From Sinosporangium album (GTDB lineage: Bacteria > Actinomycetota > Actinomycetes > Streptosporangiales > Streptosporangiaceae), in NCBI RefSeq assembly GCF_900100605.1, contig NZ_FNCN01000006.1, positions 150,476-214,475 on the forward strand: 64,000 nucleotides of DNA, written 5' to 3'. Below the pieces are notes generated by a model. It worked only from the letters and a program-made list of their open reading frames with translations, did not search any database and had not been told where the DNA came from. This document shows positions 22,749-46,186 of the stretch, in pieces. The position numbers were made by a program, and so were the translations under genes. How positions within the stretch are numbered: position 1 is the stretch's first letter; the number at the start of each line of letters is the position of its first letter.

Positions 22749-22889
22749 AATTTGACCAGCCATAAAGCCTAGAACCCAGTTACCGCACGAAATATCGTGC
22801 AATTAGCCGATCAGCCGATTCCGGCAATCAGCAAATCCCCACTGTTCCGCCTGGCCGGATTGGCGTCGCACAAACTGGGAGGGCAAAGA

Positions 22890-23651
22890 ATGAAATTCCG
22901 CCGTACGCGTCTCTTGGGAGCCGCTCTCATCACAATGGCCGTATCCGCCTCACTCGCGCCCGTCAGCGGTGCGACGGCGTCAACGCCGGCCGAAAGCCCG
23001 ATCGATATCGTCACGGTGTCCTCGACGCCCGACACCCGGGATTTGGCGCCCAGCTACAACATCGCCACTCAGACCGTCACCATGGAATACAAGAGCAAGG
23101 GTTCTTGCACTGCCCGCCAGGCCGACGAGGACATTCACGGGAAGGCGAACGGCACCGCAACCTGGGATAAGTCCATTCAGTTCGACGGCGTCGACTATGT
23201 GTTCCAGGAGATCCACTACCACGCCACGGCCGAGCACGAGGTGTCCGGCGCGAACCGCGGCGCGGAGGCGCACCTCGTGCACAAGAACGCCGCCGGCGAC
23301 TACCTCGTGCTGGCGGTGCACCTCACGGACGGCGGCGCTACGGGCTCTGAGCACGACAAGCTCATCACCAGCTCCCCGCCGACCGAGTGCGGGGGCTCGG
23401 CGAACCGCACGGGCGTCAGCCTCAGAGGGCTTCTCCCCACCGACGTCGACCGCTCCTGGCGTTATGTGGGGTCGCTGACGACGCCTCTGGGCGGCCCGTA
23501 TCTCCAGCCCGTCCAGTGGGTCGTCTTCAAGGACACGATGACAGTGCAGACCAGCACCTGGAACGCCCTCCGGGGCATTTGGTCGGGGCTCACCAACCAC
23601 AACTCCAAGCCGCACACCGCCGACACCCCGGTTATCACGCAATATCCGTAA
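22890..23651 (+). CDS. Secreted alpha-carbonic anhydrase
   Basis: 253 residues with a Sec signal peptide (MKFRRTRLLGAALITMAV, cleavage near ATA-STP). The alpha-CA fold is shown by ESPIDI near residue 35, the zinc ligands His109 and His111 in EIHYHATAEHEVSG, His128 in AEAHLVHKN, and the GSLTTP segment with QPVQWVVF. These enzymes interconvert CO2 and bicarbonate outside the cell. The usual TTPPC-E substrate-pocket segment is replaced by TTPLGGPYLQ, so activity should be tested. The ATG has GGGAGGG upstream; an earlier ATG at 22797 would add a non-secretory leader. It ends at a bidirectional terminator. Confidence 0.85.
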   Translation: MKFRRTRLLGAALITMAVSASLAPVSGATASTPAESPIDIVTVSSTPDTRDLAPSYNIATQTVTMEYKSKGSCTARQADEDIHGKANGTATWDKSIQFDGVDYVFQEIHYHATAEHEVSGANRGAEAHLVHKNAAGDYLVLAVHLTDGGATGSEHDKLITSSPPTECGGSANRTGVSLRGLLPTDVDRSWRYVGSLTTPLGGPYLQPVQWVVFKDTMTVQTSTWNALRGIWSGLTNHNSKPHTADTPVITQYP

Positions 23652-23723: not shown

Positions 23724-26700
23724 CTATGGGGCCGCCTTGTCTGGCCTTTCCGAAACTCGAATGGAATTGACAAGGGGGGAGCCGCTCCGCGCGAGGAAGG
23801 TCACATTGAGTTGCCCGTCGATGACTTTCACGGTGTACTGGCGGATGGTCGCGGCGCGCACACCGACTTCCTGTGCCAGGTCGAGGGCGGGCACGGCGAG
23901 TTCGTCTTCGACGTAGACGTCGACGACCCGACGCTCCGGGCGCATGTTGCGGGTTTCGGCGAAACCGAGTTCGACGGTGTAGACCCCTTGGGGAAGGTTG
24001 TCGAAACGGTATTCCGACATCGATTCGCGTCCACGCCTGAACAGTTCCTGGTCGGCGGTGCCCTTGATGGTCCTGCCCGTCGTGGAGACGCGGGTGCGGG
24101 TGCCCGCATAGCCGTGGCCGCCCGCGGTGTAGGCGCGGTCGGCGGCCCACTGTTCGCCGGTGGAGTCGACGACCTCGCGGGTGCCGCCCGCGTCGAGGGC
24201 GATGCGGAGCTTGGGCACGACCATGGTGACGGGGATCGCGATCTGCGGGTCCCTGCCGCTGGCCGAGCGCACCAGCAGCTTCCCGGCGCGGACAATGCCG
24301 GGGCCGGTGCCGGTGCTGCGCGCGGTGACGGTCACCGTGACGGACGCGCCCGGGGCGATGTCGCCGGTGGCAGGCGTCGCGCTCAACCAGCTTTGGGCGG
24401 GTTCGAGGGCCAAGGTGTAGGAGGTGGCGGAGCCGCCCAGGTTGGTGAGGATGACCGTGTCGGTCCTGCTGGACTCGGCGGGCATCACCAGGTCGAGTTC
24501 GCTCACCGAGGCGCTCACCCTGCCCGTGATCAGGGAGGCGTCCATGGCCGTGCGGGTGCCGGCGGCCACCGTGACGGGCTGGGTGACGGGGCCGTAGTGC
24601 TCCTTGGAGACGGTGACCTGGTGGTCGCCGACGGGGACCTGGGCGACGAAGGTGCCGTCCTCGGCCGTGGTGGAGGTCTCCCCGTCGCCGATCTTCACCG
24701 TGGCGCCGGCCAGGGGCCTGCCGTCGTTGGTGTCGGTGACGGTGCCGGCGAGCACCCCGTGGCGGCCGGCGGTGAAGGTGATGCTCTGGCCGTCCGTCAG
24801 GGAGGGCCTGTTGTAGGAATACTGGAATCCGTCGAGGCCGCCGTGGTCCTCGATGCCGATCGTGGCGCTGTCCCCCGACGAGAGCACGCCGCTCACCCCG
24901 CGGTAGCGGAAGCCGATCGAGCCGTCCTCACCGAGGACGGCGGCGAAGGAGATCTTGACGCTCCGGTCCTGGACGAAGGTCACGTCACGCCATTCGACGA
25001 CGAAAGACCGGCGCGGCGCCGTACCGACGGTGGCGGTGTAGACGCCCGATGCCCCCTCGACTGCGATGTCATCCCAGAACGGGTAGATCGCCGCGTTTGT
25101 CGGGCTGTACATGGGAACCTGCCGGTTCTCTTGCGAACCCCAGTCGTCGAGGAAACTGAGCCAGCCTCCCCGGGACACCCTGACGCCCGTGTAGGTCTTG
25201 CCGTAGTGCATGACGGGGAACGGCAACGCCACCGAGGGCACCGGCACCTGGGTGAAGTCCACCTTGCGGGTGCCGGGGACGTAGGGCTCCTTGCCGACGA
25301 CGCAGCTGTAGCCGAACGCGTCGGTACGGCGGGGCATCGCGATGTCCTTGGTCGTCGCCGCGTTCACCGTGACGGTCTCGGCCGTGGCGCCCGCGCAGCG
25401 GGTGCGCGGCGGGGTGGCCTCCAGGGTGTGGTCTCCGGCGGGCATCGGGAGGCTGTAGCGTCCCGCAGCGTCGGTGACCACCGTCGTCTCGGTGCCGGCC
25501 ACGCCGATCGTGACGCCCGCTTCGGGGCCGCCGTCGATGGTGACCGTTCCCGAGACGGGGTGCGTCGGCAGCGCGGTCAGCGCGATATCGTGGCGGGCCG
25601 TCCGGCCGTCGGACACGGTGACGGTCGCGGTGGCTTCGCCGTACCCGAGGCCGCGTGCGGTCACCCGGTAGGTGCCGACTTTAAGGTGGGGCAGGCTGTA
25701 GGTTCCGTCCTTGCCGGTGACGAGCTTGCGGTTCAGTGGCCCGGCGACGGTGAGCGCCACCTGCGCGACCGGGGAGCCGCCCGAGGTGCCCGAGGTGCCC
25801 GAGGTGACCGTGCCGCTGAGGCCGCCGACGCGGCCGGTGGGGGCGTCGGTCAACGCCCGGTGGGCGTCGAGGCGGCCCTCGCCCCAGACGTTGTTCTTGG
25901 CGGCGGTGCCGCCGCAGCTCCTGTCGTCGACGTCGACGGCCGTCCGGTCGAGTAGCTCGCGGGTCGCGGCGACGTCGCGCTTCAGCGCGGGCGCTGCCGC
26001 CCACAGCAGCGCCACGGTGGCCGCGACGTGCGGCGAAGCCATCGAGGTGCCGGATTTCAGGCCGTAGCCGTTCCCCGGCAGCGCGGAGCGGATGTCGACG
26101 CCCGGGGCGGCGATGTTGGGTTTGATCTCGCCTTTCTCGCCCGCGCCGCGCTTGGAGAAGTTCGCGATCGCGTTGTTGATGTCGAAGGCGCCCACGCTGT
26201 AGGCGTCGACGTCGGCTCCGGGGGACCCTGCGGTGTTGCAGGTCGCGTTGGCGTTGCCGCTGGCGAAGACGGGGAAGATACCGGCCGCGGTCCAGGTGTC
26301 GATCACCGGCTTGTACCAGGCGTTGATCTCGGTGACGGTCCAGGAATTGTTGACCACGTGAGGCGCGAGGTCGGGGCGGGGGTTCTGCCCCTTCAGGTCG
26401 GTGGGGGCCAGCAGCCACTGGCCGGCGCTCAGCAGGGAGCTGTGCGAGCAGCCGCCCAGGCACGCGTTGACCGAGATCCACGTCGCGCCGGGAGCGACGC
26501 CGACGGACTCGCCCACCATGGTGCCCATGCTGTGGGTGCCGTGGCCGTTGAGGTCGCAGGGCGTTCCGCCGGGGCACAGGCCGCTGTAGTCATACCAGTT
26601 GTAGTTGTGGTCGACGGTGCCGTCCGCCTTCTTGCCGCGGTACTGCGCGGCCAAGGCGGGGTGGTCGTACTGCACGCCGGTGTCGACGTTCGCCACCACG

Positions 26701-27290
26701 ATGCCTTCGCCTCGGGTGCCGAACTCCTGCCAGACCTTGGGCGCGCCGACGCGGTCGACGTTCCATTCGACCGCGCCCGCCGCCTTCGGCTTTGTGACGC
26801 CCTTCGTTCCTTTTGTTCCCTTCGCCGCCGTGCCGCCGCTCTTCGGCGGCTCAGGCACGGGAACGACGCCGTCGGGCTCGATGCGCTGCACCTCGGGCAG
26901 CTTCGCGATCTCGGCGGCCAGGTCGGCGTCGCCGACGACCTTGACCGCGTTGGCGATCCAGAACGGGGTGAACTCCGCCTTACGGGAGGTGAGTAGGGCG
27001 CGTAAGCCTTTCTGGGAGGTTTCCGCGTATGCCGTCTTGGCTCTGAAGACCTCCGCGGCCTTGTCCGCCTTGCCGGTGACCTTGGCCGCCGCGCTGAGGT
27101 CGGCGCCTTCCTTCAAGGCCACGAGGAAGGAGGTCCGGCCGGTCTTCAGTTTCGCGAAGAGGCCCGTGTCCACCTTTCCGGGGGCGGGTTCGGGCGCGGC
27201 GGCCTGTGCCGTACCCGTGGGGATGAGAAATGCGAGGGCGGTGAGGGCGCCGAGCAGCACCGACCGCCGTGGTCGGGGAGAGCGTGACAT
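23724..27290 (-). CDS. Secreted multidomain subtilase (S8), active-site triad intact
   Basis: 1188 residues. Order: signal peptide (1-30), I9-like propeptide (about 35-145), S8 catalytic domain with Asp203 (ANVDTGVQYDHP), His250 (NGHGTHSMGT), Asn314 and Ser416 ([11 protein letters not shown]), two carboxypeptidase-regulatory-like beta domains (about 490-655), a nidogen-like domain containing YPFWDDIAVEG, a third regulatory-like domain, an Ig-like BACON-type domain, and a C-terminal malectin-like domain (ALDAGGTREVVDSTGE). It should be an extracellular endopeptidase, possibly held on glucans by the malectin module. The ATG follows GGAGACATTTC. It is last of three tandem paralogues, 29 bases after the second. 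Confidence 0.92.
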   Translation of the reverse strand: MSRSPRPRRSVLLGALTALAFLIPTGTAQAAAPEPAPGKVDTGLFAKLKTGRTSFLVALKEGADLSAAAKVTGKADKAAEVFRAKTAYAETSQKGLRALLTSRKAEFTPFWIANAVKVVGDADLAAEIAKLPEVQRIEPDGVVPVPEPPKSGGTAAKGTKGTKGVTKPKAAGAVEWNVDRVGAPKVWQEFGTRGEGIVVANVDTGVQYDHPALAAQYRGKKADGTVDHNYNWYDYSGLCPGGTPCDLNGHGTHSMGTMVGESVGVAPGATWISVNACLGGCSHSSLLSAGQWLLAPTDLKGQNPRPDLAPHVVNNSWTVTEINAWYKPVIDTWTAAGIFPVFASGNANATCNTAGSPGADVDAYSVGAFDINNAIANFSKRGAGEKGEIKPNIAAPGVDIRSALPGNGYGLKSGTSMASPHVAATVALLWAAAPALKRDVAATRELLDRTAVDVDDRSCGGTAAKNNVWGEGRLDAHRALTDAPTGRVGGLSGTVTSGTSGTSGGSPVAQVALTVAGPLNRKLVTGKDGTYSLPHLKVGTYRVTARGLGYGEATATVTVSDGRTARHDIALTALPTHPVSGTVTIDGGPEAGVTIGVAGTETTVVTDAAGRYSLPMPAGDHTLEATPPRTRCAGATAETVTVNAATTKDIAMPRRTDAFGYSCVVGKEPYVPGTRKVDFTQVPVPSVALPFPVMHYGKTYTGVRVSRGGWLSFLDDWGSQENRQVPMYSPTNAAIYPFWDDIAVEGASGVYTATVGTAPRRSFVVEWRDVTFVQDRSVKISFAAVLGEDGSIGFRYRGVSGVLSSGDSATIGIEDHGGLDGFQYSYNRPSLTDGQSITFTAGRHGVLAGTVTDTNDGRPLAGATVKIGDGETSTTAEDGTFVAQVPVGDHQVTVSKEHYGPVTQPVTVAAGTRTAMDASLITGRVSASVSELDLVMPAESSRTDTVILTNLGGSATSYTLALEPAQSWLSATPATGDIAPGASVTVTVTARSTGTGPGIVRAGKLLVRSASGRDPQIAIPVTMVVPKLRIALDAGGTREVVDSTGEQWAADRAYTAGGHGYAGTRTRVSTTGRTIKGTADQELFRRGRESMSEYRFDNLPQGVYTVELGFAETRNMRPERRVVDVYVEDELAVPALDLAQEVGVRAATIRQYTVKVIDGQLNVTFLARSGSPLVNSIRVSERPDKAAP

Positions 27291-27319: not shown

Positions 27320-30300
27320 CTAGGGGGCGGTCTTGTCCGGCCGTTCGGTGATGCGGATGGCGTTCACGATCGGTGTGCCGGTCCGTACGGCGAAGCGCAG
27401 ATTGAGCTGCCCGTCGGTCACCTTGACCGTGTAGCGCCTGGTGGTGGCCGTCTGCACGCCGACCTCCTGGGCCAGGTCGAGCACGGGCACCGCGAGTCGG
27501 CCTTCGGCCAGGACGTCGAAGACCCTCCCTCCGGGAGGTGTCGCGCGCAGATCGGCGAAGCCGAGCTCGACGCTGTAGACGCCGACGGGCACCTTGTCGA
27601 AGCGGTATTCCGCCATCGATTCGCGGGCACGTGAGAACAGGTCCTGCTCAGCGGTGTCCTTGACCGGCGTGTCCGTGGTCACGACCCTGGTCCTGGCTCC
27701 CATGTAGCCGAAGCTGCCCGGGGTGTAGGCGCGGTCCGCGCTCCACCGGTCACCCGCGGCATCCGTGATGTCCCGGGTGCCGCCCGCGTCGACGGCGACC
27801 TGGTGCCTGGGCACCGCCATCGTGACGGGGATCTCCACCTGCGGCGACCTGCCGCTGGCCGAACGCACCAGCAGCTTTCCGTGGCGGAACGCGCCCGGAT
27901 ACAGTCCCGCACTGTCCACGGTGACGGTCACCGTGACCGATCCGCCGGGAGCGATCTCGCCGGTGGCGGGCGCGGCGCTCAGCCAGCGTTGACCGGGTTC
28001 GGCCGCGGCGGTGAAGGCGGCGGCGGACCTGCCCACGTTGGTGAGGGTCACCACGGCGCTCTTGGTGGAGCCCGCCGGCAGGGTCAGGTCGATCTCGCTC
28101 ACCGAGGCGCTGACGCTGCCGGTGACCAGGGACGCGTCGGCGCGGGTCCACGCGCCGACGGTCACCGTGACCGTCTGGGCGACGGAGCCGTAGTGCTCCC
28201 TCTCGACGGTGACCCCGTGGTCGCCGGGCGGCACATAGCCCACGAAAGTGCCGTCGTCGGCCGTGGTGAAGGTCATCACCGCGCCCGGCTTCGCCGCGTC
28301 GCCCACCGTGACGGTGGCTCCGCCCAGCGGATGACCGTCGTTGGCGTCGGTGACGGCGCCGGTGAGGAGTCCGTGGCGTCCCGTGGTGAAGGTCAGATTC
28401 TGACCGTCGCTGAGGGCACGCGTGTTGTAGGAGAACAGGAAGGCGTCCGTGCCGCTGCCGTCCTCGATACCCACCGTGGCCATCTCTCCGGCGGTGAGAG
28501 CGTCGCCGACGCCGCGATACTGGAACTTGATCGACCCGTTCTCCCCGAGGAGCAGGGAGAACGAAAGCCGCCTGTTGTTCTGGAACAGGTAGACGTTGCG
28601 CCATTCGACGACGAAGGTGCGGGTGGGGGCGGTGCCCATCGCGGCCGTGTACACACCGGACTGGGCGTCGATCCTGAGGTCATCCCAGAAGGGGTAGATC
28701 GCCGCGTTGACCGAGTCGGAGGTCGGCAGGGGGACGTTCTCCCGCGCCCCCGCCGTTTCCAGGAAGGTCAGGAAACCGTTGGGCGCGACCCAGCCGCCGC
28801 GGTAGGTGTCTCCGTAGAAGGGAAACGCGAACGGCAACGCCACGCGGATCGGAGCCGGCGCGCTCCCGGAGAACGGCAGCTTGTCCGTGCCCGAGGTGAA
28901 CGGCGCCGCGCCGCCGACGCAGCCGTAACCGAAGGTGTCCGTACGGCGGGGCATGACGATGTCCTTGGTGAGCGCCGCGCTCACCGAGTCTTTGGTGAGC
29001 GCCGCGCTCACAGTGATCGCGACGGTGGCGGGGCCCGCGCAGCGGGCGGTGCCCGGGGCGACCTCCAGGGTGTGGTCTCCGCTCTCCAGGTCGAGCCGGT
29101 AGCGGCCCTGCGCGTCGGTGACCGCGCTCGTCATGGTGCCCGCCACGGTGAGCGTGGCTCCCGCTTCGGGGCCGCCGTCGGTGGTGACGGTTCCGGACAC
29201 GGCGTGGGTGGGCTGGGCCGAGAGCGGCACGTCGTGGACGGCGGTCCGGCCGGCGGCCACGGCGACGGTCGCGGTGGCTCCGCCGTACCCGACCTTGCGG
29301 GCGGTGACGCGGTAGTCGCCCGCGGGCAGGCGGGGCAGGGCATAGGCGCCGTCCTTGCCGGTGACGACCGTACGGTTCAGCGGTCCGGCGAGGGTGACGG
29401 TCGCCATGTCGAGGGGGGCGCCGGCCGAGGTGACCGTCCCCTTGAGCCCGCCGATCTGTCCGATCGGCGCGGCGCGCACCGCCTGGTAGGCGTCGAGACG
29501 GCCCTCGCCCCAGACGTTGTTCTTGGCGGCGGTGCCGCCGCAGGTCGTGTCGTCGAGGTCGGCGGCGGAGCGGTCGAGCAGGGCCCGGGTCGCCGCGACG
29601 TCGCCCTTCATCGTCGGAGCGGCCGACCACAGCAGCGCCACGGTGGCCGCGACGTGCGGCGACGCCATCGAGGTGCCGGAGTTGAGCTCGTAGCCGCCGC
29701 CGGGCACCGAGGAGCGGATGTCGACGCCGGGCGCGGCGATGTTGGGCTTGAGCTCGCCGTTCGCGCCGGAGCCTCGGCTGGAGAAGTCGGCGATCCGGTC
29801 GGTCGCGTCGAACGCGCCCGCGCTGTAGGTAGGGGCGTCGGCTCCCGGCGATCCGGTGCTCTGGCAACCGGGGCCGGTGTTGCCGCCGGAGAAGGCCGGG
29901 AAGATGCCGGCGGCGACCCACGCGTCTACGGCTGGCTTGAACCACGGGTCGACGGCCGGGCCGCCCCACGAGTTGTTGACGACGTCGGGCGCGAGGTCGG
30001 GCCGGGGGTTGCGCCCGGCCGCGTCGGTGGGCGCCAGCACCCACTGTCCGGCGGCCAGCAGGGCACTCGACGCGCAGTCCGTGGCCGAGCAGGCTTTGAC
30101 CGCGATCCAGGTGGCGCCGGGGGCGACGCCGACGGCGTCCCCGGCGGACCCACCGACCATGGTGCCCATGGTGTGGGTGCCGTGGGAGCCGCTGGTGCAC
30201 GGCACCGCCGGGGTGCATTCGCCGGTGGAGTCGTAGTAGTTGTGGTTGTGGTCGACGGTGCCGTCAGGCTTCTTGCCGCGGTACCGGTCGGCGAGCGCGG

Positions 30301-30973
30301 GATGGTCGAACTGCACGCCGGAGTCGATGTTCGCCACGACGACGCCCTCGCCGCGGACGCCGTACTCGTTCCAGACCTTCGGCGCGCCGACGCGCTCGAC
30401 GTTCCATTCGACGGCGCCCGCCGCCTTCGGCGTGACCGGCTTCGGCACGGTCGGCATCGGCACGGTCGGCATCGGCGTGGTCGTGCCCTTGGCCGGCGGG
30501 GGCAGGGGGATGGTGCGGTCGAGCTCGACGCTCCGCACTTCGGGGAGTTTCGCGATCTCGGCGGCGAGATCGGCGTCCCCGGTGACCTTGACGGCGTTGG
30601 CTATCCAATACGGGGTGAACTCGGCCTTACGCGAGGCGAGGAGGGCGCGCAGGCCCGCCTGGGAGGTTTCGGCCCTCGCGGTCTTGGCTTTGAGGACCTG
30701 TGCGGCCTTGCCGGTCTTGGTGGTGGCCCTGGCCGCCGCGCTGAGATCGGCGCTCTCGTTGAGATAGACGAGGAAGGTGGCGTTCGAGCTCTTGACCAGT
30801 TCGGCGGCCAGGGTTTTGCTGATCTTGTCGGGTTCCGGCGCGGCCTGGGCCGTGCCGGACGCAGCGCCGGACGTCGCGCCGGACGTCGCGCCGTAGGCCG
30901 TGCCGTACGGGAGGAGGAAGGCGAGGGCGGCCGCGATCAGAGCCGTCCGCCATCGCCGGGAGGTGTGTGACAC
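27320..30973 (-). CDS. Secreted multidomain subtilase (S8), active-site triad intact
   Basis: 1217 residues, same module order as its downstream paralogue. Catalytic residues are Asp217 ([12 protein letters not shown]), His264 ([10 protein letters not shown]) and Ser435 ([11 protein letters not shown]), with VVNNSWGG supplying the oxyanion Asn. The signal region is followed by [12 protein letters not shown] repeats. A nine-residue duplication (SAALTKDSV then SAALTKDIV) lies before the nidogen-like domain and reflects a 27-base direct repeat. GTG start after AAGGAGACC. Only 29 bases separate it from the next subtilase, with no terminator, so these two are probably co-transcribed. Confidence 0.92.
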
Positions 30974-31020
30974 GGGGTGGTCTCCTTTGAACCGGGGGAC
31001 TCCGTCCGCCCGGGGACCCG

Positions 31021-31048
31021 GACCGTCCCGCGCGGTGGCGGGACGGTC
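31021..31048 (-). terminator. Hairpin between subtilase genes
   Basis: GACCGTCCCGC and its exact complement flank a six-base loop, located between the stop of the third subtilase-like gene and the start of the second. It may terminate or attenuate transcription. A 12-base direct repeat CGTCGCTCGACT follows at 31048 and 31070. Confidence 0.6.
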
Positions 31049-31096
31049 GTCGCTCGACTACTCGGTCTTCGTCGCTCGACTGAGGGAGTGCTCGCC

Positions 31097-34000
31097 TTAC
31101 GGAGCAGCGGTCTTGTCAGGCCGTTCGGTGATGCGGACGGCGTTGACGAGAGGGCTGCCGCGCTGCCCGACGAAGCGCAGGTTGAGCTGGCCGTCGGTGA
31201 CCTTCACCGTGTAGCGGCGGGTCGTGGCCGTGTGAGCGCCGACGGACTGGGCGAGGTCGAGGACGGGGACGACGAGCCGCCCCTCGGCCGTGACGGCGAA
31301 AACGCGCTGACCGGGGCGTGTGTCGCGGGTGTCGGCGAAGCCGAGTTCGATGGTGTAGACGCCGTTCGGCACCTTGTCGAAGCGGTATTCGAGCATCGCC
31401 TCACGCGCGGTCTTGAACAGCTCCTGGTCGGTCGTGCCCTGGATCGGCCCCTCGAAGGTGTGTGTCGTGGTCTCGGCTCCCATGTAGCCGTGGCCGCCCG
31501 GCGTGTAGGCGCGGTCCGCGGTCCACCGGTCGCCTGCGGCGTCCGTGATGTCCTTGGTTCCGCCGACGTCAAGGGCGATCTGATGTTGGGGCACCACCAC
31601 GGTCACGGGGATGGACAGCCGGGGGTTGCCCGCGCTCGCGGACCGCACCACCAGCTCCCCGGCGCGGAACGAGCCGGGCGCAAGCCCCGCGCCGCTGCCG
31701 TGGACGGTGACGGTGACCGACGCGCCGGGCGCGAGTTCGCCGCTCCGCGGGGAGGCGGTCAGCCAGCTCTGCGCGGCGTCGCTCTCGACGGTGTACGCGG
31801 TCGCCGCGGTGCCCAGGTTCGTGAGGGTGACCGTGGCGCTCCTGTTCGCGCCTCCGGGCGCGACCAGCTCCACCGCCGTCGTGTCGGCGCTCACCCGGCC
31901 GGTGACCAGGCCGATGTCCGTGGCCATACGGGTGCCGAGGCCGACGATCACCTGCCTGCCGACCGTCCCGTAGTCCGTTTTCGACGCCGTGATCCGATGC
32001 TCGCCGGGCGGCGCGTAGGCGACATACGTGCCGTCCTCGCCCGTGGTCGTCTCCGCCACGTCGCCGATCTTGACGGTGGCCCCGGCCAGCGGACGCCCGT
32101 CGTTGGCGTCGGTCACGGTGCCGCGCACCAGCCCGTGCCGGGTCGGGGCGAAGGTCAGGCTCCGGCCCTCGGCGAGCACGGGCTTGTTGAAGGAGTAGAG
32201 GAAGGCGTCGTTGTCCGCCTTCGTGCCCTCCAGGCCGACGGTGGCGCTGGCGCCGCCGGTCAGCCCGCCGGCCGGCCCGTCGGCCGCGCCACGGTAGCGG
32301 AACCCGATCGAGCCGTTCTCCCCCAGCAGCGCCGCGAACGACACACGCTTAGTGGGATCACTCTTGAAGGTGACGTTGCGCCATTCGATGACATACGTGC
32401 GGTCGGGGATGAAGCCGGTGGTCGCGGTGTAGATGCCCGCCTGGTCGTCCACCACGACGTCATCCCAGAACGGGAAGATCGCGGCATCGTTGATGTTGGT
32501 GGTGGGTAGCCGCCAGTTGAAGGCCCGGGATCGGGGATCGACGGCGGAGAAGAAGTTCACGAAGCCCACCGGCGAGATCGACGCCTTGGTGTAGGTGCCG
32601 TTGTAGAACGGGAAGGCGAACGGCAGCGTGACGGAAATGGGCGTGTCGGGCTGCGTGGCGAGCTTCTCCGTGCCCGCCGCATAGGGGTGTGCGCCCTTCA
32701 CGCAGCTATAGCCGAAGAAGTCCGTACGGCGCTGCATGGCGATGTCCTTCACCACGTCGCCCGCACCGGCGGCCGGCGCGGCGGCAACGGGCCCGGTGGT
32801 AGCGGGCGCGGTGGTAGCGGGCGCGGTGATGGCCGCGGTCGTGGCTCCGCCGCAGCTCGGGGCGGGCGAGGTCACCTTCACCTCGTGGCCGCCGCCCTCG
32901 GGCAGCGGCAGGCTGTAGCGGCCGTCGGCACCGGTGACGGCGCTGTCCGGCGCACCGGACACGCGCACCGTCGCCCCCGCCTCGGGGACGCCGTCGAGGG
33001 TCACCGTGCCCGACACCGTGCGCGCCGCCGAAGGCGCCAGCGTCACGTCATGCACGGCCGTCTGCCCGGCCGTGACGGTGACGGTCGCGACGGCTTCGCC
33101 GTACCCCGCCTTCCTCACCGTCACCTGGCGGGCCCCCGCCGCCAGCCGCGGGATGCGGAAACCGCCGTCCGAGGCGGTGACAACCGTACGGCTCCCCGCC
33201 CCGGCCACCGTGACGCTCGCCAGGGCGACCGGCGACCCGCCGGCGGTCACGGTGCCCGTCAGGCCGCCGGCCGCCTCGGCGGGAGCCGCCTTCAGCGCCG
33301 CGTAGACGTCGAGGCGCCCCTCACCCCACACGTTGTTCTTCGCCGGAGTCCCGCCGCAACTCGTGTCGTCCACGTCGACCGCGGTGCGGTCGAGCAGCGC
33401 GCGGGTAGCAGGCACGTCACGGTAGAGACTGGGAACCGCGGACCACATCAGTGCGACCGCGCCGGCCACATGCGCCGCGGAGAAAGACTGGTCGGTCCAC
33501 GTCCGGTAGCCGTTGCCGGCGATCGCCGTGCGCACGTTGACGCCCGGTGCGGCGATATTCGGCTTGATCTCCCCGTTCTCCCCCGGCCCACGACCAGAGC
33601 CGGCGTTGATCGCGTTGTTGGCGTCGAACGTGCCCACGCTGTAGCCGTTGGCGTACTGCCCCGGGGAGAAGCTGGAATTGCACGCCTGGCTCCGAGGCCC
33701 GTTGTTCAGCGCGGGGAAAATGCCGGCCGCGACCCACGCGTCGACGATCTCCTTGTACCAGCGGTGATAGCCCGGAACTCCTCCGGACCTGTCCCCCGGG
33801 GTGCCCCACGAATTGGTGATGACGTCGGGCGCGAGATCCGGCCGCGGATTCCCACCGGTGAGATCCGTGGGGGCCAGCATCCACTGCCCGGCCGCGAGCA
33901 GAGAGCTGAAATAGCAGTAGCCTCCGTCGCAGCCCCTGGCGGTGATCCATTTCGCCTCCGGCGCGACACCGATGTCGTCGCCGACGCTCCCGCCCACCAT

Positions 34001-34969
34001 CAGGCTCATCTGCGGGGTGCCGAAACCATAGCCATTGCAGCTCGGTGAGATGGTGCACACATCGCACGGGGCGCCTTCACACGTCCCCATGGCGTCGAAC
34101 CAGTTGTAGTTGTGGTCCACGCCTCCGTCGGCTCTCTTGCCGCGATACTGCGCGGCGAGAGCCGGGTGGTCGAACTGCACGCCGGAGCCGATGTTGCCCA
34201 CCACGATGCCTTCGCCGCGGGTCTTGAACTCACTCCACACCTGCGAGGCGCCGATCCGCTCGATGTTCCACGCCACCGCGGCGGCGGCCTGCGCCCGTGC
34301 CGGGCTCTCGCCCTTGGGGCCGTCCGGCTCGACGCCGGCCGCGCTGTTCCCCGGGCTTTTCCCCGGGCTTTTCCCCGGGGCGTTCACCGGGCCGTTCGCC
34401 AGGACGATGTCGGGTTCGATCCGCTCCACTTCGGGAAGTGCGGCGATCTCGGCGGCGAGTGCGGCGTCGCCGGTCACATGGACGGCGTTCACGATCCACA
34501 GCGGCGTGAACCGCGCCTTGCGGGCCGCGAGCAGTGTGCGCAGCCCCGCTTGGGACGAGGCGGCGAAAGCGGTCTTGGCCTTGTAGACCTGCGCGCCCTT
34601 GTCGGCCCGGGTCGTGGCGGCCCGGGCGGCGTTGAGATCGGCGCCGCCTTTCAGCCGCACCAGGAAACCGGTCTTGCCATCGGCCGTGCGGCCGTCAGCC
34701 ATACGGCCGTCAGCCGTACGGCCGGGCGAACCGCCGGCCTTGGCGTTCGGCTTGGTGTCGGCCTTGCTGTCGGCCTTGCTGTCGGCCTTGGCAACGGCCT
34801 TCTCGGCCGCCTTCAACTCGGCCAGGAGGCTCCTGTCGATTTTGTCGTTCCCGGGAGCGGCGGGGGCGGCAGCGGGGGCTGCGCTCGCCACGCCCTGGGG
34901 GATGAGCAGGGTGAATGCGGTGACGGTTCCTAAAAGGATGGTTCGCCACCGCCGGGGGGTGCGCGGCAC
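31097..34969 (-). CDS. Subtilase-like pseudoprotease (S8 fold, triad broken)
   Basis: 1290 residues from GTG at 34969, which has AAGGAG five bases upstream. Module order equals the two downstream paralogues: signal peptide, propeptide with a KADSKADSKAD-rich insert, S8 domain, regulatory-like domains, nidogen-like domain, Ig-like domain and malectin-like end. The catalytic Asp is Gly261 ([12 protein letters not shown]) and the catalytic His is Phe316 (GYGFGTPQM replaces GHGTHxM); Ser495 survives (TDQSFSAAHVA) but the GTSMAS context is lost. Extra cysteines surround the lost His (CEGAPCDVC and SC). It should be proteolytically inactive and may act as a binding or regulatory homologue. First gene of the tandem set. 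Confidence 0.9.
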   Translation of the reverse strand: MPRTPRRWRTILLGTVTAFTLLIPQGVASAAPAAAPAAPGNDKIDRSLLAELKAAEKAVAKADSKADSKADTKPNAKAGGSPGRTADGRMADGRTADGKTGFLVRLKGGADLNAARAATTRADKGAQVYKAKTAFAASSQAGLRTLLAARKARFTPLWIVNAVHVTGDAALAAEIAALPEVERIEPDIVLANGPVNAPGKSPGKSPGNSAAGVEPDGPKGESPARAQAAAAVAWNIERIGASQVWSEFKTRGEGIVVGNIGSGVQFDHPALAAQYRGKRADGGVDHNYNWFDAMGTCEGAPCDVCTISPSCNGYGFGTPQMSLMVGGSVGDDIGVAPEAKWITARGCDGGYCYFSSLLAAGQWMLAPTDLTGGNPRPDLAPDVITNSWGTPGDRSGGVPGYHRWYKEIVDAWVAAGIFPALNNGPRSQACNSSFSPGQYANGYSVGTFDANNAINAGSGRGPGENGEIKPNIAAPGVNVRTAIAGNGYRTWTDQSFSAAHVAGAVALMWSAVPSLYRDVPATRALLDRTAVDVDDTSCGGTPAKNNVWGEGRLDVYAALKAAPAEAAGGLTGTVTAGGSPVALASVTVAGAGSRTVVTASDGGFRIPRLAAGARQVTVRKAGYGEAVATVTVTAGQTAVHDVTLAPSAARTVSGTVTLDGVPEAGATVRVSGAPDSAVTGADGRYSLPLPEGGGHEVKVTSPAPSCGGATTAAITAPATTAPATTGPVAAAPAAGAGDVVKDIAMQRRTDFFGYSCVKGAHPYAAGTEKLATQPDTPISVTLPFAFPFYNGTYTKASISPVGFVNFFSAVDPRSRAFNWRLPTTNINDAAIFPFWDDVVVDDQAGIYTATTGFIPDRTYVIEWRNVTFKSDPTKRVSFAALLGENGSIGFRYRGAADGPAGGLTGGASATVGLEGTKADNDAFLYSFNKPVLAEGRSLTFAPTRHGLVRGTVTDANDGRPLAGATVKIGDVAETTTGEDGTYVAYAPPGEHRITASKTDYGTVGRQVIVGLGTRMATDIGLVTGRVSADTTAVELVAPGGANRSATVTLTNLGTAATAYTVESDAAQSWLTASPRSGELAPGASVTVTVHGSGAGLAPGSFRAGELVVRSASAGNPRLSIPVTVVVPQHQIALDVGGTKDITDAAGDRWTADRAYTPGGHGYMGAETTTHTFEGPIQGTTDQELFKTAREAMLEYRFDKVPNGVYTIELGFADTRDTRPGQRVFAVTAEGRLVVPVLDLAQSVGAHTATTRRYTVKVTDGQLNLRFVGQRGSPLVNAVRITERPDKTAAP

Positions 34970-35611
34970 GCGATCTCCTTCAGGCCGAAGCGCGACGGAA
35001 CATCGGAAAATAAGATCTGTCAACCATGCGGAGAATGGTGGATCGATCCTAGTCGGCATTTCAACCTGTGGACCGTTGGAAAATCACGCTTATTGCAGAT
35101 TTAAGGTTGCGGGAGCGTTCTAAACATTACTCCGGAGCGCGAGGGAATCCCGTTGAAAATGGGGCCCATTTCGCCGCCCACTTCACAGATAAAGAACTCC
35201 CGCCAAAGGGTAGCATCGGCGTCGGGTGCCCTTCGCAGTGGACACCACCGCCAGCGGTTTACGGTGATATGCCGACCGCCATTGGGTCCGTCCATTCCCT
35301 GGAGAAGCCCCAGCTCATTCGGCACGGGATAATGAGAATACGTAAGGCCGCGCCTTTCAATGGCGACGTCGCAGGCCGCGTCGGCGCACACGGCGGGGTA
35401 CACGGCGGGGTGCACGGCGGCTCACGCAGCGAGATGCACGGCGGCGCACATGGCGGGGCACCAGGCCCACCCCCTGCCCCATGGGCCCCACGCCCCGCGA
35501 GCCGCCCCTCCCCAACGGCGGAACGCCCGGCTATATAGGACGACACGACACACGAAATGGCCACATGCCGGAGCCGTGGCGTACGGTCCCCCCACTTGAT
35601 GTACTGGAGGC
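34970..35611. other. Intergenic region upstream of the subtilase cluster
   Basis: 642 bases without a convincing gene. The 5' part is unusually AT-rich for this window (34,990-35,200) and should contain the promoter of the subtilase cluster. Between about 35,385 and 35,465 there are imperfect CACGGCGGGGT-type repeats. An open frame on the plus strand reads as His/Gly/Pro low complexity and has no ribosome-binding site. The promoter of the decarboxylase-like gene lies at the right end. Confidence 0.6.
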
Positions 35612-37514: not shown

Positions 37515-38396
37515 TCACACGATCGGCGGGCGGCCGAGTTTGGCCATGCGCCAGGCGGTGGCCCAGGACATGGGGCGGCGTTCGCCGGCGGGTTCGCGGA
37601 GTCCTTCGCCGAAGCCGCGGAACCAGGCTTTGAGGGACGAGGGGGAGCGCTCACGCAGCAGCGTGAGGGCGATCCAGTCGAGGAGGTAGACGGCGGCGAG
37701 GGGCCAGGGGAGGTTGCGGCGGGCGAGCCAGACGCGGTTGCGGGCGTTGAGCCGGAAGAACTGCGCGTGGCGGGTAGGCGGCACCTGGGGGTGGTACATG
37801 ACGGTTTGGGCGTCGTATTCGATGCGGTAGCCCTCGCCGAGGAGCCGCCAGGCGAGGTCGGTCTCCTCGTGGGCGTAGAAGAAGTTCTCCGGTTGGCCGC
37901 CGACCTGGAGGTAGGCGGAGCGCCGGATGGCGCACGCGCCACCGAGGAAGGTGGTGACGGGTGAGGAGCGTTCGGGGTTGCCGGCGCGGAGGCGGGGCAC
38001 GTGGCGGCGTTGGCCGTTGCCGCCGTCGGGGTCCATGACGCGGAAGGAGATGACGGCGAGGTCGGGCTCTTTGGCGAACCGGTCGCGCACGTGGGCGGCG
38101 ACCCTGGGGCTGGCATACCACCCGTCGTCATCGAGGAACAGGACGATGTCGCCGGAGCATTCCTCGACACCGCGGTTGCGCCCGGCAGGGATGCCGGTGT
38201 TGTGCTGGAGCCGCACGATCTTGATGGTGGCGGCGCTCCCGATGCCCGGCGAGGCGTTGAGTTCGGGAACGTCGGCACCGTTGCCGACGATGACCACTTC
38301 GACGTCGCCGTCGATCTGGTCGAGGACGGAGGCGACCGCCCGGTCCAGCTCGGCGACCCGGTTGCCCATGGTGAGGATGACGCACGAGATCTTCAA
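37515..38396 (-). CDS. GT2-family glycosyltransferase
   Basis: 293 residues. The GT-A core begins ISCVILTMGNRVAELDRAV, with RNRGVEECSGDIVLFLDDDG (DXD site) and the acceptor-side HEETDLAWRLLGEGY. A weakly hydrophobic segment near residue 235 may touch the membrane. Start codon is TTG. It resembles rhamnosyl- or galactosyl-transferases of wall polysaccharide clusters. It lies downstream of the CDP-alcohol phosphatidyltransferase group, separated by a terminator hairpin, so it may have its own promoter in the 178-base gap. Confidence 0.86.
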   Translation of the reverse strand: MKISCVILTMGNRVAELDRAVASVLDQIDGDVEVVIVGNGADVPELNASPGIGSAATIKIVRLQHNTGIPAGRNRGVEECSGDIVLFLDDDGWYASPRVAAHVRDRFAKEPDLAVISFRVMDPDGGNGQRRHVPRLRAGNPERSSPVTTFLGGACAIRRSAYLQVGGQPENFFYAHEETDLAWRLLGEGYRIEYDAQTVMYHPQVPPTRHAQFFRLNARNRVWLARRNLPWPLAAVYLLDWIALTLLRERSPSSLKAWFRGFGEGLREPAGERRPMSWATAWRMAKLGRPPIV

Positions 38397-38504
38397 CGTG
38401 TCATCGTCCTGACGCGTCGAAAGGACCTGCGAAGCATTCTTCCATGATCACCAAGTCTGCTTGATGTGGCAATTCCGGGATGGATTTTCTTGCCGATTAG
38501 CGTA

Positions 38505-38567
38505 TCGGAACCCGCAGCCGCCCCCCGCCAAACCGGCTGTTCGCCGGAGGGCGGCCGCGGGTTCCGA
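38505..38567 (-). terminator. Terminator of the CDP-alcohol operon
   Basis: A 19-bp stem with one A-C mismatch (outer arm TCGGAACCCGC pairing with GCGGGTTCCGA) and a 25-base loop. It begins eight bases after the stop of the CDP-alcohol phosphatidyltransferase gene in the direction of transcription. Confidence 0.8.
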
Positions 38568-38574
38568 GGAATTC

Positions 38575-39342
38575 TCACTTGAGCCGCCGCGACGCCAGAA
38601 TGCTCACGAGGTGCAGAATGAGCTGGAGTCCCGCGATGACGGCGCAGGCCACGGTGAGCAGCCGGGTGGCGGCGAGGCTTCCCGTCGCGAGGTCCCAGAG
38701 GGCGGCGACCACCACGATGAGCGATAGCTCGACCGCCTGGATGACGCGGTGGAACCGGAACGCGGCGGCGATCTTGCGGGCGGTCCCCAGCCCTCGGGAC
38801 TGGAACTGCTCGGCCGACGTCTCGGTGGCCGCGATCAGCCCGGACCGGGCTCGGGCCACGTCGACGAGGTCGGTCTCGGCCTTGATGAGGATCGCGCCGA
38901 GGGCCGCGGCGAAGCCGAGCACGGTGTACCAGTCGGGCAGGGTCTCCGACGCGCGGAAGCCGAGCCCGATCAGCAGGGCCGCCTCCGCGAAGTAGTGGCC
39001 GACCCGGTCGAGGTAGACGCCGGTGATGGAGGTGCGCCCGGTCCACCTGGCGAGCTCGCCGTCGGAGCAGTCGAGCAGGAGGTAGACCTGGATGAGCAGC
39101 GCCGCCCCGAGCGCCGCCCAGAGGCCGGGCAGGGCCAGCACAACCCCGGCCAGCAGGCCGGACACGATCATCAGGCCGGTGGCCTGGTTGGGCGTGATCG
39201 GCGTACGGGCCAGCGCCCATGTGACGTAGATGGACAGTTTGCGCATGTAGAGCAGGCCGGCCCAGTGTTCGCCGCTGCGGCGGTCCATCGTCGTCTGCGG
39301 CTGGGCGACCGCGCGAATCTCAGCGACCGACGGCGCGGACAT
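38575..39342 (-). CDS. CDP-alcohol phosphatidyltransferase, variant active site
   Basis: 255 residues, integral membrane. The family motif DGx2ARx8Gx3Dx3D reads DGELAR, then G-VYL-D-RVG-H: the last Asp, the proposed catalytic base, is His. About six TM helices are visible. Such enzymes transfer a phosphate-alcohol group from a CDP-linked donor to an alcohol. The ATG start (MSAPSVAEIR) lies inside the end of the upstream dehydrogenase gene, a 23-base overlap, showing tight coupling. It probably uses the CDP-linked product of the nucleotidyltransferase in the same operon. Substrates unknown. Confidence 0.85.
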   Translation of the reverse strand: MSAPSVAEIRAVAQPQTTMDRRSGEHWAGLLYMRKLSIYVTWALARTPITPNQATGLMIVSGLLAGVVLALPGLWAALGAALLIQVYLLLDCSDGELARWTGRTSITGVYLDRVGHYFAEAALLIGLGFRASETLPDWYTVLGFAAALGAILIKAETDLVDVARARSGLIAATETSAEQFQSRGLGTARKIAAAFRFHRVIQAVELSLIVVVAALWDLATGSLAATRLLTVACAVIAGLQLILHLVSILASRRLK

Positions 39343-40378
39343 AGTCCTCAACCCGATCACGCACCTCGGACTCCGAAAGGCGCAGGTGTTCAAGGATGGT
39401 GTAGCGGCCGGGCCTGGTCGCCGGGGCGTGCATGACGGCGGTGGTGAACTGCTCGGCCGAAAGGCCCACGTCGCGCGGCGTGACCGGGAGGGAGTGGCCG
39501 CGCAGGCAGTCGACCACCTGGGTGAAGCGCTGCTCGTCCCGCCGGAGGAAGAAGCAGAAGGCCGCGCCGATGCCGGCGAGTTCGCCATGGTTGGAAGTGC
39601 CTGGATATAGCTGATCCACGGCATGAAGGATCTCATGGTCGCCACCGCTGGTGGGACGTGAAGATCCCGCGACGACCATGGCCACGCCGGAGAGGATGAG
39701 CGACTCGGCCAGCACGGTCAGGAACGCGTCGGACTCGATCGAGTCGCCGCGTCCGATGACCGCCTCCGCGGCGGTGCGGGCCATCGAGCAGGCCAGCCCG
39801 TCGATGGGTTCTCCGCGTTCGGCCGCACCCAGGTGCCAGTCCTCGATGGCCGACAGGTTGCTCACCACGTCGCCGACGCCGGACCGGACCAGGGCCGGGG
39901 GGGCGTCGTGGACGAAGTCGAGATCGACCATGATCGCCAGGGGCATGGGCACGCCGAACGACCCTTTGCCGCCCTCGTGGACGAGCGAGGCCACCGGCGA
40001 GCAGATGCCGTCGTGGGACAGGTTGGTGGCGACGGCGACCATGGGGATGCCCGCGAGCGACGCCGCGTATTTGGTCGCGTCGATGGTCTTGCCGCCGCCG
40101 ATGCCGACGACGGCCTCGTAGGCGCCTTTGCGCAGGTCGGCCCCGAGCGAGACGGCGGCGTCCACGGACCCGTCGGGGACGCGGAACACCTGGGCCTCGC
40201 CGAGGGAGGGCGCGATCACCTTGGCAATGTGATCGCCCTGCCCGGCGCCGACCGCCACGGCCACCCTGCCCGAGGTGGCGACTCTGCTGTCGGCGAGCAG
40301 CGAGCCGAGTTGCGCGACCGCGCCCCTTCTGACCTCCATCATCAGAGGCGCGGGGAGCATCCTCGCTAGAATCGGCAC
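39320..40378 (-). CDS. sn-glycerol-1-phosphate dehydrogenase-like enzyme (iron/zinc ADH superfamily)
   Basis: 352 residues from GTG at 40378, preceded by AAGGAGGTCGT. The cofactor loop is VGIGGGKTIDATKYAA, followed by VATNLSHDGICSPVASL, the segment typical of the EgsA/AraM group. Metal ligands are expected in GVGDVVSNLSAIEDWH and LHAVDQLYPGTSNHGELAGIG. The group reduces dihydroxyacetone phosphate to sn-glycerol-1-phosphate with NAD(P)H. It is flanked by a nucleotidyltransferase and a CDP-alcohol phosphatidyltransferase, which could activate and transfer its product. Another polyol phosphate is possible. Confidence 0.85.
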   Translation of the reverse strand: MPILARMLPAPLMMEVRRGAVAQLGSLLADSRVATSGRVAVAVGAGQGDHIAKVIAPSLGEAQVFRVPDGSVDAAVSLGADLRKGAYEAVVGIGGGKTIDATKYAASLAGIPMVAVATNLSHDGICSPVASLVHEGGKGSFGVPMPLAIMVDLDFVHDAPPALVRSGVGDVVSNLSAIEDWHLGAAERGEPIDGLACSMARTAAEAVIGRGDSIESDAFLTVLAESLILSGVAMVVAGSSRPTSGGDHEILHAVDQLYPGTSNHGELAGIGAAFCFFLRRDEQRFTQVVDCLRGHSLPVTPRDVGLSAEQFTTAVMHAPATRPGRYTILEHLRLSESEVRDRVEDYVRAVGR

Positions 40379-40433
40379 ACGACCTCCTTCACCGGCATGT
40401 TCACCGGTCCGGTGACTCCGCCGACCAGTAGCG

Positions 40434-41168
40434 CTAGTAGCGGCACGCGATCTCCCTGGCCTTGGCGAGGTCGTCGTGGTTGTCGACCTCGACCCAGTCG
40501 ACCCTGCCGATGGGCGCGATCGAGATCTTCTCTCCCCGGGCCACCATCTCGGCGTAACCGTCCTCGTAGTAGAGCTGCGGGTCACGCTCGAACGTGGCCT
40601 TCAGCGCGTCCGCGAGCCGCTCGGCGGCGCCTGGTCTGATCAGGGTCGCACCTATGTATTCCCCGGCGGCCTCCGCGGGGTTCATGAGCTTGGTGATGCG
40701 GGCGAGGTCTCCCTCGGGGGTGAGGGTGACCTTCATCTCCTCGTCGGCCAGCACCTTGACGTTGTCGACGGCGAGCAGCACGTCGGAGGTCACCGGGGCG
40801 GACAGGAGGGTCTCCTCGACCGACACGGGGTGCACGGTGTCGCCGTTGACGAGGAGCGCGCCCTCACCGAAGTGGTCACGCGCGCACCACAGCGAGTAGG
40901 CGTTGTTCCACTCCTCGGCCTTGTCGTTGTGCACCAGGGTGAGTTTGACGCCGTGGCGGCGCTCCAGCGCCTCTTTGCGTTCGTGTACGGCTTCCGCCGC
41001 GTAGCCGACGATCACCACCACGTCCCGCAGATCGACCGCCGCGAGGTTGCGCAGCGAGATGTCCATGATCGTGGTATCGCCGTCGACCGGCACGAGCGCT
41101 TTCGGCAACGTGTCGGTGTAGGGCCGCAGGCGTCGTCCGGCACCGGCGGCCAGCACCATTCCCAGCAA
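40434..41168 (-). CDS. Nucleotidyltransferase (phosphocholine/polyol-phosphate cytidylyltransferase-like)
   Basis: About 244 residues. The N-terminal signature MVLAAGAGRRLRPYTDTLPK and LLVNGDTVHP mark a nucleotidyltransferase of the LicC/GlmU-like type, without a beta-helix. The TTG at 41168 is favoured by GAGGAG six bases upstream; ATG at 41159 is the alternative. It starts the three-gene operon with the glycerol-1-phosphate-dehydrogenase-like and CDP-alcohol phosphatidyltransferase genes, so it likely makes the CDP-activated (or other NDP) head group. The nucleotide is inferred from its partners, not seen. Confidence 0.82.
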   Translation of the reverse strand: MLGMVLAAGAGRRLRPYTDTLPKALVPVDGDTTIMDISLRNLAAVDLRDVVVIVGYAAEAVHERKEALERRHGVKLTLVHNDKAEEWNNAYSLWCARDHFGEGALLVNGDTVHPVSVEETLLSAPVTSDVLLAVDNVKVLADEEMKVTLTPEGDLARITKLMNPAEAAGEYIGATLIRPGAAERLADALKATFERDPQLYYEDGYAEMVARGEKISIAPIGRVDWVEVDNHDDLAKAREIACRY

Positions 41169-41299
41169 GGTGCACTCCTCATCCGAGTGATGTTCAGGCC
41201 CCAAAGGTTAGTTGTCTTTGAGTGCAGATCGTGTAATGCACTCTCCGTCAACCCGTGCCGTCGCAGAACGTCAAGACCCAAAAAACAATGCGAAGTGCC

Positions 41300-41919
41300 C
41301 TAATCGTGCGCCCCCAGATCGGCCGCGTCCACACCCGTTCTGGGTGCCGCGAGCCAGCACGTGGTGCTTTCCCAGGCGAACAGCCCCCACAGGTATACCG
41401 CCAGCAGCACGAACACCGCCGTCACCCACCCGGCGAGGGCGCCGAGGGAGACCAGCAGCATGCGCCCCTCCCACCCAAGGCCGAACGTGGCGAGCCAGGA
41501 CGGCGGGTACACGTGCTGCCGAACCCGATAGACGATGTCGTAGTGGTGGAAGGCCATCGCGCCGAGCAGCAGCAGGATCAGAATCGGCGGCACATCGTGG
41601 GCGAAGCCGACGGAGGCGATGAAGCCGTACTCGGTGAGGCGGAGGATCGGCGGCACGAGCCAGTCGAGCCTGCCGTCGTGCCGGTGGGAGCTGCCCGGTC
41701 CGGCGAGCAGGAGCGCGACCGCCGGCGCGAAGACCGCGAGGCCGTCGCTGCCCGCCACGCCGACGGCGAGCAGGATGCCGGTCACGAAGGCCCCGGCGAG
41801 CGCCGGCGGCAGCGGCGGCAGTTGCCCGGCCACCAGGGTGCCCATGGCCTGGGACAGCGCCCCGTCGTCGCGGTAGGCCACCACGGAGCTGCGCGGCACC
41901 GGAGTCATGTGCACGGAGA

Positions 41920-41923
<4 letters not shown>
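41300..41923 (-). CDS. DUF5941-like integral membrane protein
   Basis: 207 residues with about five hydrophobic helices. It resembles the DUF5941 region that in other actinomycetes is found joined to a CDP-alcohol phosphatidyltransferase. Here it is a separate gene whose ATG overlaps the phosphatidyltransferase stop by four bases (ATGA). A conserved-looking YGFIASVGFAHDVPP and HHYDIVYRVRQ lie in the loops. It is probably a partner subunit of the upstream enzyme; its own activity is unknown. Confidence 0.75.
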
Positions 41924-43386
<1,463 letters not shown>

Positions 43387-43549
43387 GTCGCTCTATCTCC
43401 TTGGACTCGGGCGGGATCGCCGTCCGGACTGGGGAGCTGTGCGCACCCAGCGTAGCGATATGTTGACCCGATATCACGGGTGTGCGGTGACGTTTCACGC
43501 GCGATCGGGTAGTTCATGCGACACAACCATCGATCTCTGAGGATTCACC
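43387..43549. promoter_or_regulatory. Divergent promoter region of the CDP-alcohol block
   Basis: 163 bases between two divergently transcribed genes, both linked to CDP-alcohol chemistry. The central part is less GC-rich (around 43,455-43,540). Promoters for both directions are expected; I cannot define -10/-35 elements with confidence. Confidence 0.5.
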
Positions 43550-45037: not shown

Positions 45038-45062
45038 GGCCGGGGCGTCAGCGGGGCCGACG

Positions 45063-46094: not shown

Positions 46095-46186
46095 GCTACT
46101 GTACGAGCGGGTGGGGATCGCAACCGAAAGACCTCGGCTCCCGCGGTCTCACAGGCCCACGAGTCTCAGGGTGAGGGGGGCACCGG

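Follow-up and report, generated by a model that had tools for sequence, protein, structure and literature searches.

Why would a bacterium maintain, at the head of a set of tandem protease genes, one that no longer encodes the residues needed to cut? The question arises from a 64,000-nucleotide stretch of the Sinosporangium album genome (contig NZ_FNCN01000006.1, positions 150,476 to 214,475 of the forward strand; here called the window), which carries three tandem minus-strand genes, each encoding a large S8 subtilase with a prodomain before the catalytic domain, three carboxypeptidase-regulatory-like stretches, an immunoglobulin (Ig)-like stretch and a malectin domain. An earlier note, made from the sequence by eye, had singled out gene 1 as inactivated and as the first of the set, and it is indeed first in transcription order. 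We find that gene 1 is not a pseudogene in decay but a pseudoprotease that has been conserved, and that it has company: more than half of the family copies examined in this genome (7.06 Mb, 97 contigs) and in that of the one congener compared, S. siamense, have lost the cutting residues and apparently kept the fold, and they probably bind instead of cut.

A maintained subtilase without its catalytic site

The gene 1 open reading frame (ORF; 31097-35059, minus strand) runs for 1320 codons without a stop. The GTG at 34969, which sits after gaaggagatcgc and gives a protein of 1290 residues, is the most likely start, because gaaggag stands before it and most other members of the family have a similar site at that place. 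In this numbering the exchanges that the earlier note had read, Asp to Gly261 and His to Phe316 with Ser495 retained, were confirmed, and no stop interrupts the 1290 codons, but its list was incomplete: the oxyanion Asn has become Pro425, the GTSM motif of subtilases is replaced by DQSF, and further copies in the genome had been missed. A Pfam match to Peptidase_S8 at 90.4 bits (cut-off 21.8) places the protein in family S8 by fold and descent. With Gly, Phe, Pro and Ser at the Asp, His, Asn and Ser positions it lacks the triad and oxyanion Asn that define an active S8 peptidase, and it falls under the definition of a pseudoprotease, namely a predicted protease fold with lost catalytic residues in a gene maintained by selection. 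Pfam also matched the regulatory-like modules (CarboxypepD_reg, three times), a BACON_2 Ig-like domain (34.2 bits, cut-off 25) and the malectin module (75.2 bits, cut-off 23) but no nidogen family, so that of the modules named earlier the nidogen-like one rests on inspection by eye. A signal peptide was likewise seen by eye.

The catalytic assignments were borne out by alignment to subtilisin. In a Tk-subtilisin profile alignment, Asp, His, oxyanion Asn and Ser fall in the same columns as those assigned in gene 1, and the AlphaFold2 (AF2) model of the prodomain and catalytic domain has a subtilisin fold, with a predicted local distance difference test score (pLDDT) of 86.1 and a predicted template modelling score (pTM) of 0.89. 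Its top Foldseek matches in the PDB were pro-forms of Tk-subtilisin (E ~1e-17, template modelling [TM] score 0.57 by query length), as expected because the query includes the prodomain, and mature subtilisins matched at TM 0.88 by their own length. The C-terminal part (pLDDT 88.9, pTM 0.67) had matches among bacterial glycosidases and among plant receptor ectodomains of malectin-like type, at TM ~0.2 or less by query length. The extra cysteines that had been taken to re-stabilize the fold are real (Cys305 and Cys311), but they are private to the window copy, being absent from 5 of 5 other cassette gene-1 copies compared, and such a role finds no support.

Purifying selection on gene 1, also claimed earlier, is evident from a comparison with its nearest relative, in an S. 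siamense cassette (C32a) that matches the window cassette gene by gene in dead-active-active order. By the method of Nei and Gojobori (NG86), the nonsynonymous and synonymous divergences (dN/dS) of the two catalytic domains are 0.225/1.015 (0.22), and those of the active neighbors are 0.208/0.659 and 0.241/0.552. In neutral simulations of the same stretch (70% GC, dS 0.92-1.16) the ratio averaged 1.05-1.09, the lowest single value under all settings being 0.69, and the simulated copies were left with 14-20% identity and with 9-10 codons per 340 holding a stop in either copy; the observed pair retains 69% identity and has no stop.

Inactivated copies across two species

Matches to this subtilase family at E <= 1e-150 occurred in 4 of 41 genomes of the taxonomic family, with at least 14 and at least 16 in the two Sinosporangium genomes and one each in two others, up to 16 candidates being scored in each genome. 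A deeper search of 11 genomes (E <= 1e-50) raised these numbers to 14 and 23 for the two Sinosporangium, while each of the remaining nine genomes had 0-3. Scoring a catalytic domain as intact when Asp, His and Ser are present, and otherwise as dead, we counted 15 intact and 18 dead among 33 copies in the genus, the dead ones making up 8 of 13 in S. album and 10 of 20 in S. siamense; one of the 15 intact copies has Asp for the oxyanion Asn, and all 18 dead copies have lost His. The genus sample is these two genomes, both of them drafts in which similar genes are repeated in tandem, and the counts leave out an S. album gene without a catalytic domain (C44 368901), a C59 fragment from the same genome, and C12 170775 and five C13 fragments from S. 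siamense. Outside the genus, every catalytic domain that aligned over 300 residues or more was intact (57 of 57), in loci fetched by two peptide patterns that contain no catalytic residues; the hidden Markov model used was built from intact copies, and it does detect dead copies within the genus. These relatives come from Nonomuraea, Sphaerisporangium, Planotetraspora, Streptomyces and others, match the query over most of its length where the loci are closer, and number 0-3 copies in the sampled genomes; Bacillus-type relatives stand at 31-35% identity, and a grouping with bacillopeptidase F-type subtilases is a candidate. For S8 matches in Sinosporangium, the triad should be checked before they are called proteases.

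In a tree of 43 proteins, made from columns other than the catalytic ones by a quick method without bootstraps, the copies separate into gene-1, gene-2 and gene-3 clades (supports 99, 99 and 100), within which the window and C32a genes are sister pairs (85, 95 and 98 for genes 1, 2 and 3). All 8 members of the gene-1 clade, from both species, are dead (Shimodaira-Hasegawa-like approximate likelihood ratio test, 99.9), in keeping with the earlier expectation that inactivity would be shared by relatives of gene 1, whereas the gene-2 clade has 2 intact copies of 9 and the gene-3 clade 6 of 7. The expected orthologues with the same Gly/Phe exchanges did not appear. The C32a relative has Ser, Leu and Ser at the Asp, His and Ser positions, so the loss is conserved and the replacement residues are not. 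The most likely ancestor of gene 1 is a paralogue that was already inactive when the two Sinosporangium species diverged. A tree of the C-terminal part recovered the same three clades. In a tree of the catalytic domain only (283 columns), 6 of the 8 gene-1 copies stayed together (99), the solitary pair C53/C14 was placed elsewhere, and genes 2 and 3 were not resolved as single clades. The structure alignment (A3) holds 41 of the 43 tree rows, being without C44 359064 of S. album and C12 186409 of S. siamense, the latter of which crosses a locus boundary; alignment A4 holds 36 of the 43.

The fewest changes of state on the main tree number six, a count that carries no direction. The ten rows from outside the genus are not set apart by any single branch: copies from the C12a and C44 arrays fall among them. 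Losses are the natural reading because relatives outside the genus are intact, and the six changes are best read as repeated, separate losses. The solitary dead orthologues (S. album C53, L028 4133-6943; S. siamense C14, L053 3149-6004) are shorter and 83-86% identical by region; they share Asp to Gly, His to Asn and Ser to Asp across both species, and each has the upstream element described below. One cassette per species has no intact member (C56, 3 of 3 dead, in S. album; C32b, 2 of 2 dead, in S. siamense).

Change in the dead copies is concentrated on the catalytic cleft. Across 140 columns conserved in 25 intact proteins, the median column is unchanged in the 18 dead ones, while the 14 most changed columns comprise the triad, the oxyanion Asn, neighbors in GTHTMGT and SGTSMASP, the equivalents of N123 and S125 (subtilisin numbering) and a further Ser 14 residues before the catalytic one. 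His, the Met after Ser, the oxyanion Asn, the Pro of SxPH and the GTH neighbors are all among them; the ranking is partly circular for Asp, His and Ser, since these define the dead set, and not for the other columns. Site rates in dead copies put the His, Asn, Ser, His+3 and His+4 columns at the 89th-97th percentile of the catalytic domain and Asp at the 83rd. Positive selection in the cleft was considered and rejected; surface loops are as fast as the cleft columns, so release from constraint explains the cleft rates.

What the gene 1 product may do

We give an even chance to the reading that the gene 1 product is a folded, non-cutting binding protein made alongside its active paralogues. The protein, a subtilisin fold unable to cut, would probably be secreted and act outside the cell. 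Its prodomain-protease core would fold and stay uncut in a zymogen-like state, with the prodomain presumably retained, a state that is probable because the core cannot process itself. The regulatory-like, Ig-like and malectin modules would bind an extracellular target also used by the active paralogues, possibly a glycan or matrix, and contact with those paralogues may occur as well. A wider and rather unlikely extension is that Sinosporangium turned a secreted protease family into non-cutting recognition proteins that retain the subtilisin scaffold and the upstream element, with the cleft, now among the most variable parts, as a diversifying ligand pocket and a few active copies kept for cutting; cleft variability fits release from constraint in the dead copies.

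Several observations weigh against the reading as a non-cutting binding protein. Four other dead pairs are looser in the catalytic domain (dN/dS 0.212/0.365, 0.303/0.646, 0.086/0.160 and 0.160/0.386, or 0.41-0.58) by NG86, which is rough in a genome of ~70% GC. These ratios lie above that of an active pair from the C50 and C12b cassettes (catalytic domain, 0.123/0.435, or 0.28), so some relaxation is likely. Conserved residues specific to gene 1 occupy 11 columns, equal to the 11 of the active gene-3 clade, so a gained function finds no support in residue conservation. The family also includes truncated and broken copies.

The proposed uncut state is modeled on CspC of Clostridioides difficile, which has lost two triad residues and whose prodomain is not autoprocessed (PMC6636752). 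By the same source, CspC and CspA are, like gene 1, subtilisin-fold pseudoproteases, and they act with an active relative, CspB. By analogy, gene 1 might bind its active paralogues as a heteromer and control their folding, activation or localization, a role that we consider doubtful. It would suit the pairing of dead and active genes in one cassette in both species, the upstream element shared by leader genes of both kinds and the conserved prodomain, and it has the precedent in C. difficile (PMC6636752 and PMC12880746); against it stand the all-dead cassettes (C56, C32b) and the solitary dead genes (C53/C14), so an active partner in cis is not required, and a partner in trans could serve. The likeness to the Csp proteins also has its limits. 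They have a jelly-roll insertion of ~130 residues, whereas gene 1 matches S8 in one stretch (282-563, profile 1-276) and its AF2 secondary structure has no added barrel, and the NCBIfam models CspBA and CspC score 37.2 bits (cut-off 1250) and 28.9 bits (cut-off 675). Unlike Csp, gene 1 has long C-terminal modules after the S8 domain and belongs to a set of many copies with a dedicated upstream element.

The earlier suggestion of an inhibitor-binding decoy, taken here as an inhibitor or substrate decoy that shields the active enzymes from canonical inhibitors, appears improbable: retention of the predicted fold and the company of genes for active enzymes speak for it, but divergence is greatest in the very cleft that a canonical inhibitor would occupy (the oxyanion Asn, GTSM and the equivalents of N123 and S125), and the erosion of this cleft disfavors a decoy. 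We hold it very improbable that gene 1 is a decaying duplicate without function. This is a birth-and-death family with fragments (C13 and C12 170775 in S. siamense; C44 368901 and C59 in S. album), its catalytic columns change fast and several of the dead pairs have a looser dN/dS, yet the 1290-codon frame is intact, catalytic dN/dS is 0.22, 8 of 8 clade copies are dead in two species and the upstream element is conserved. Least probable of all is altered catalysis, in which Ser495 would work with other residues, since the Ser is kept in the window copy and its sister but Asp, His and oxyanion Asn are lost in both, the residues before it differ (TDQS versus ADTS) and 6 of 8 clade members have lost it.

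To return to the non-cutting binding protein, a multicopy inactivated set in one lineage has a parallel in the scabies mite inactive protease paralogues (SMIPP), which are serine and cysteine protease families of an animal parasite with a fold unrelated to subtilisin. The SMIPP serine proteases belong to family S1. To our knowledge, few bacterial pseudoproteases have a known role, and among the matches listed by a literature search the bacterial papers concern C. difficile or its relatives. A survey of prokaryotic serine proteases listed 42 putative inactive homologues among 966, and a genus-wide inactive set with a shared upstream element is not described in the part of it available (PMC2605481). 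Among the matches listed by literature searches (pseudoprotease with subtilisin, actinobacteria/subtilase, family expansion, bacillopeptidase F), no title or opening of an abstract dealt with the Sinosporangium subtilase family. With its six state changes best read as separate inactivations, active sisters, intact outside relatives and shared element, the family offers a natural series in one genus, which makes the transition from protease to binding protein directly testable.

Upstream element and surroundings of the cassette

A conserved, AT-rich, promoter-like element of 104 nucleotides (nt) lies upstream of 14 leader genes and is newly described here. Run against the two genomes with a threshold of E <= 10, and with 150 of 388 and 150 of 518 first-look candidates scored, a sequence model of it (R1) gave 19 matches (5 and 14), every one beside a subtilase-family gene; among the candidates scored, none lay away from the family. 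The element stands before leader genes of both kinds, dead and active. Matches in the genus outside the training set were found at C45 (67.7 bits), the broken C13 array (49.7), S. album C44 (37.0) and C57 (34.2), with a further weak match (18.3 bits, E 0.013) beside a training gene. Of 12 loci searched in other genera, 9 gave a match and the other 3 did not: Sphaerisporangium reached 47.0 bits and Nonomuraea and Planotetraspora 13.4-24.4, five matches being weak (E 0.0017-0.027), and all nine end 24-59 nt before a codon at which the subtilase gene is likely to start. It is therefore probable that the element is older than the expansion. By eye, it contains two similar boxes ~45 nt apart (CGsTCC...TTrAAAT; e.g., 35016-35119, minus strand), perhaps a repeated regulator site. 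Also by eye, GC-rich inverted repeats, unlike the AT-rich leader element, lie just before the ribosome-binding site between many array genes (L045, L026, L049).

R1 was not found at genes 2 and 3 in the window, and co-transcription of these genes with gene 1 is likely because they have no such element of their own. The gaps are 123 nt between genes 1 and 2 and 29 nt between genes 2 and 3, and a scan of 30950-31150 showed no promoter or terminator between genes 1 and 2.

Table 1. Coordinates within the window of gene 1, its parts and adjacent features
Feature	Position	Strand	Basis or remark
Gene 1, pseudo-subtilase, 1290 residues from the inferred GTG start	31097..34969	-	ORF open to 35059
Prodomain of gene 1, approximate limits	34409..34666	-	Alignment; AF2 model, pLDDT >90 over most of the prodomain
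Peptidase_S8 domain of gene 1	33371..34216	-	Pfam, residues 282-563 of P0001
Gly261 codon, catalytic Asp position	34187..34189	-	
Phe316 codon, catalytic His position	34022..34024	-	
Pro425 codon, oxyanion Asn position	33695..33697	-	
Ser495 codon, catalytic Ser retained	33485..33487	-	
CarboxypepD_reg, best of three stretches in gene 1	33038..33262	-	Pfam
Malectin domain of gene 1	31142..31579	-	Pfam
AT-rich promoter-like element upstream of gene 1	35016..35111	-	R1 model, 63.4 bits; in training set
Gene 2, paralogue with intact Asp/His/Asn/Ser	27320..30973	-	
Gene 3, paralogue with intact Asp/His/Asn/Ser	23724..27290	-	
Alpha-type carbonic anhydrase, convergent on the cassette	22797..23651	+	

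The carbonic anhydrase has a homologue (39%) that follows the C32a cassette of S. siamense at a distance of ~100 nt, and a second one (36%) near C45. Wider synteny with S. siamense was considered and rejected, the upstream ADC-like gene being on another contig there. When nearby predicted genes were compared, a single strong link emerged (76%), located next to the arrays C44 and C12a, and the other links were at 27-42%. Further along the window, 37518-47806 holds cell-envelope polymer genes, with two CDP-alcohol phosphatidyltransferases, a fusion of an IspD-like domain and a short-chain dehydrogenase, an Fe-ADH, family 2 glycosyltransferases and a LytR-CpsA-Psr protein, which by their predicted products look like a pathway of teichoic-acid-type synthesis.

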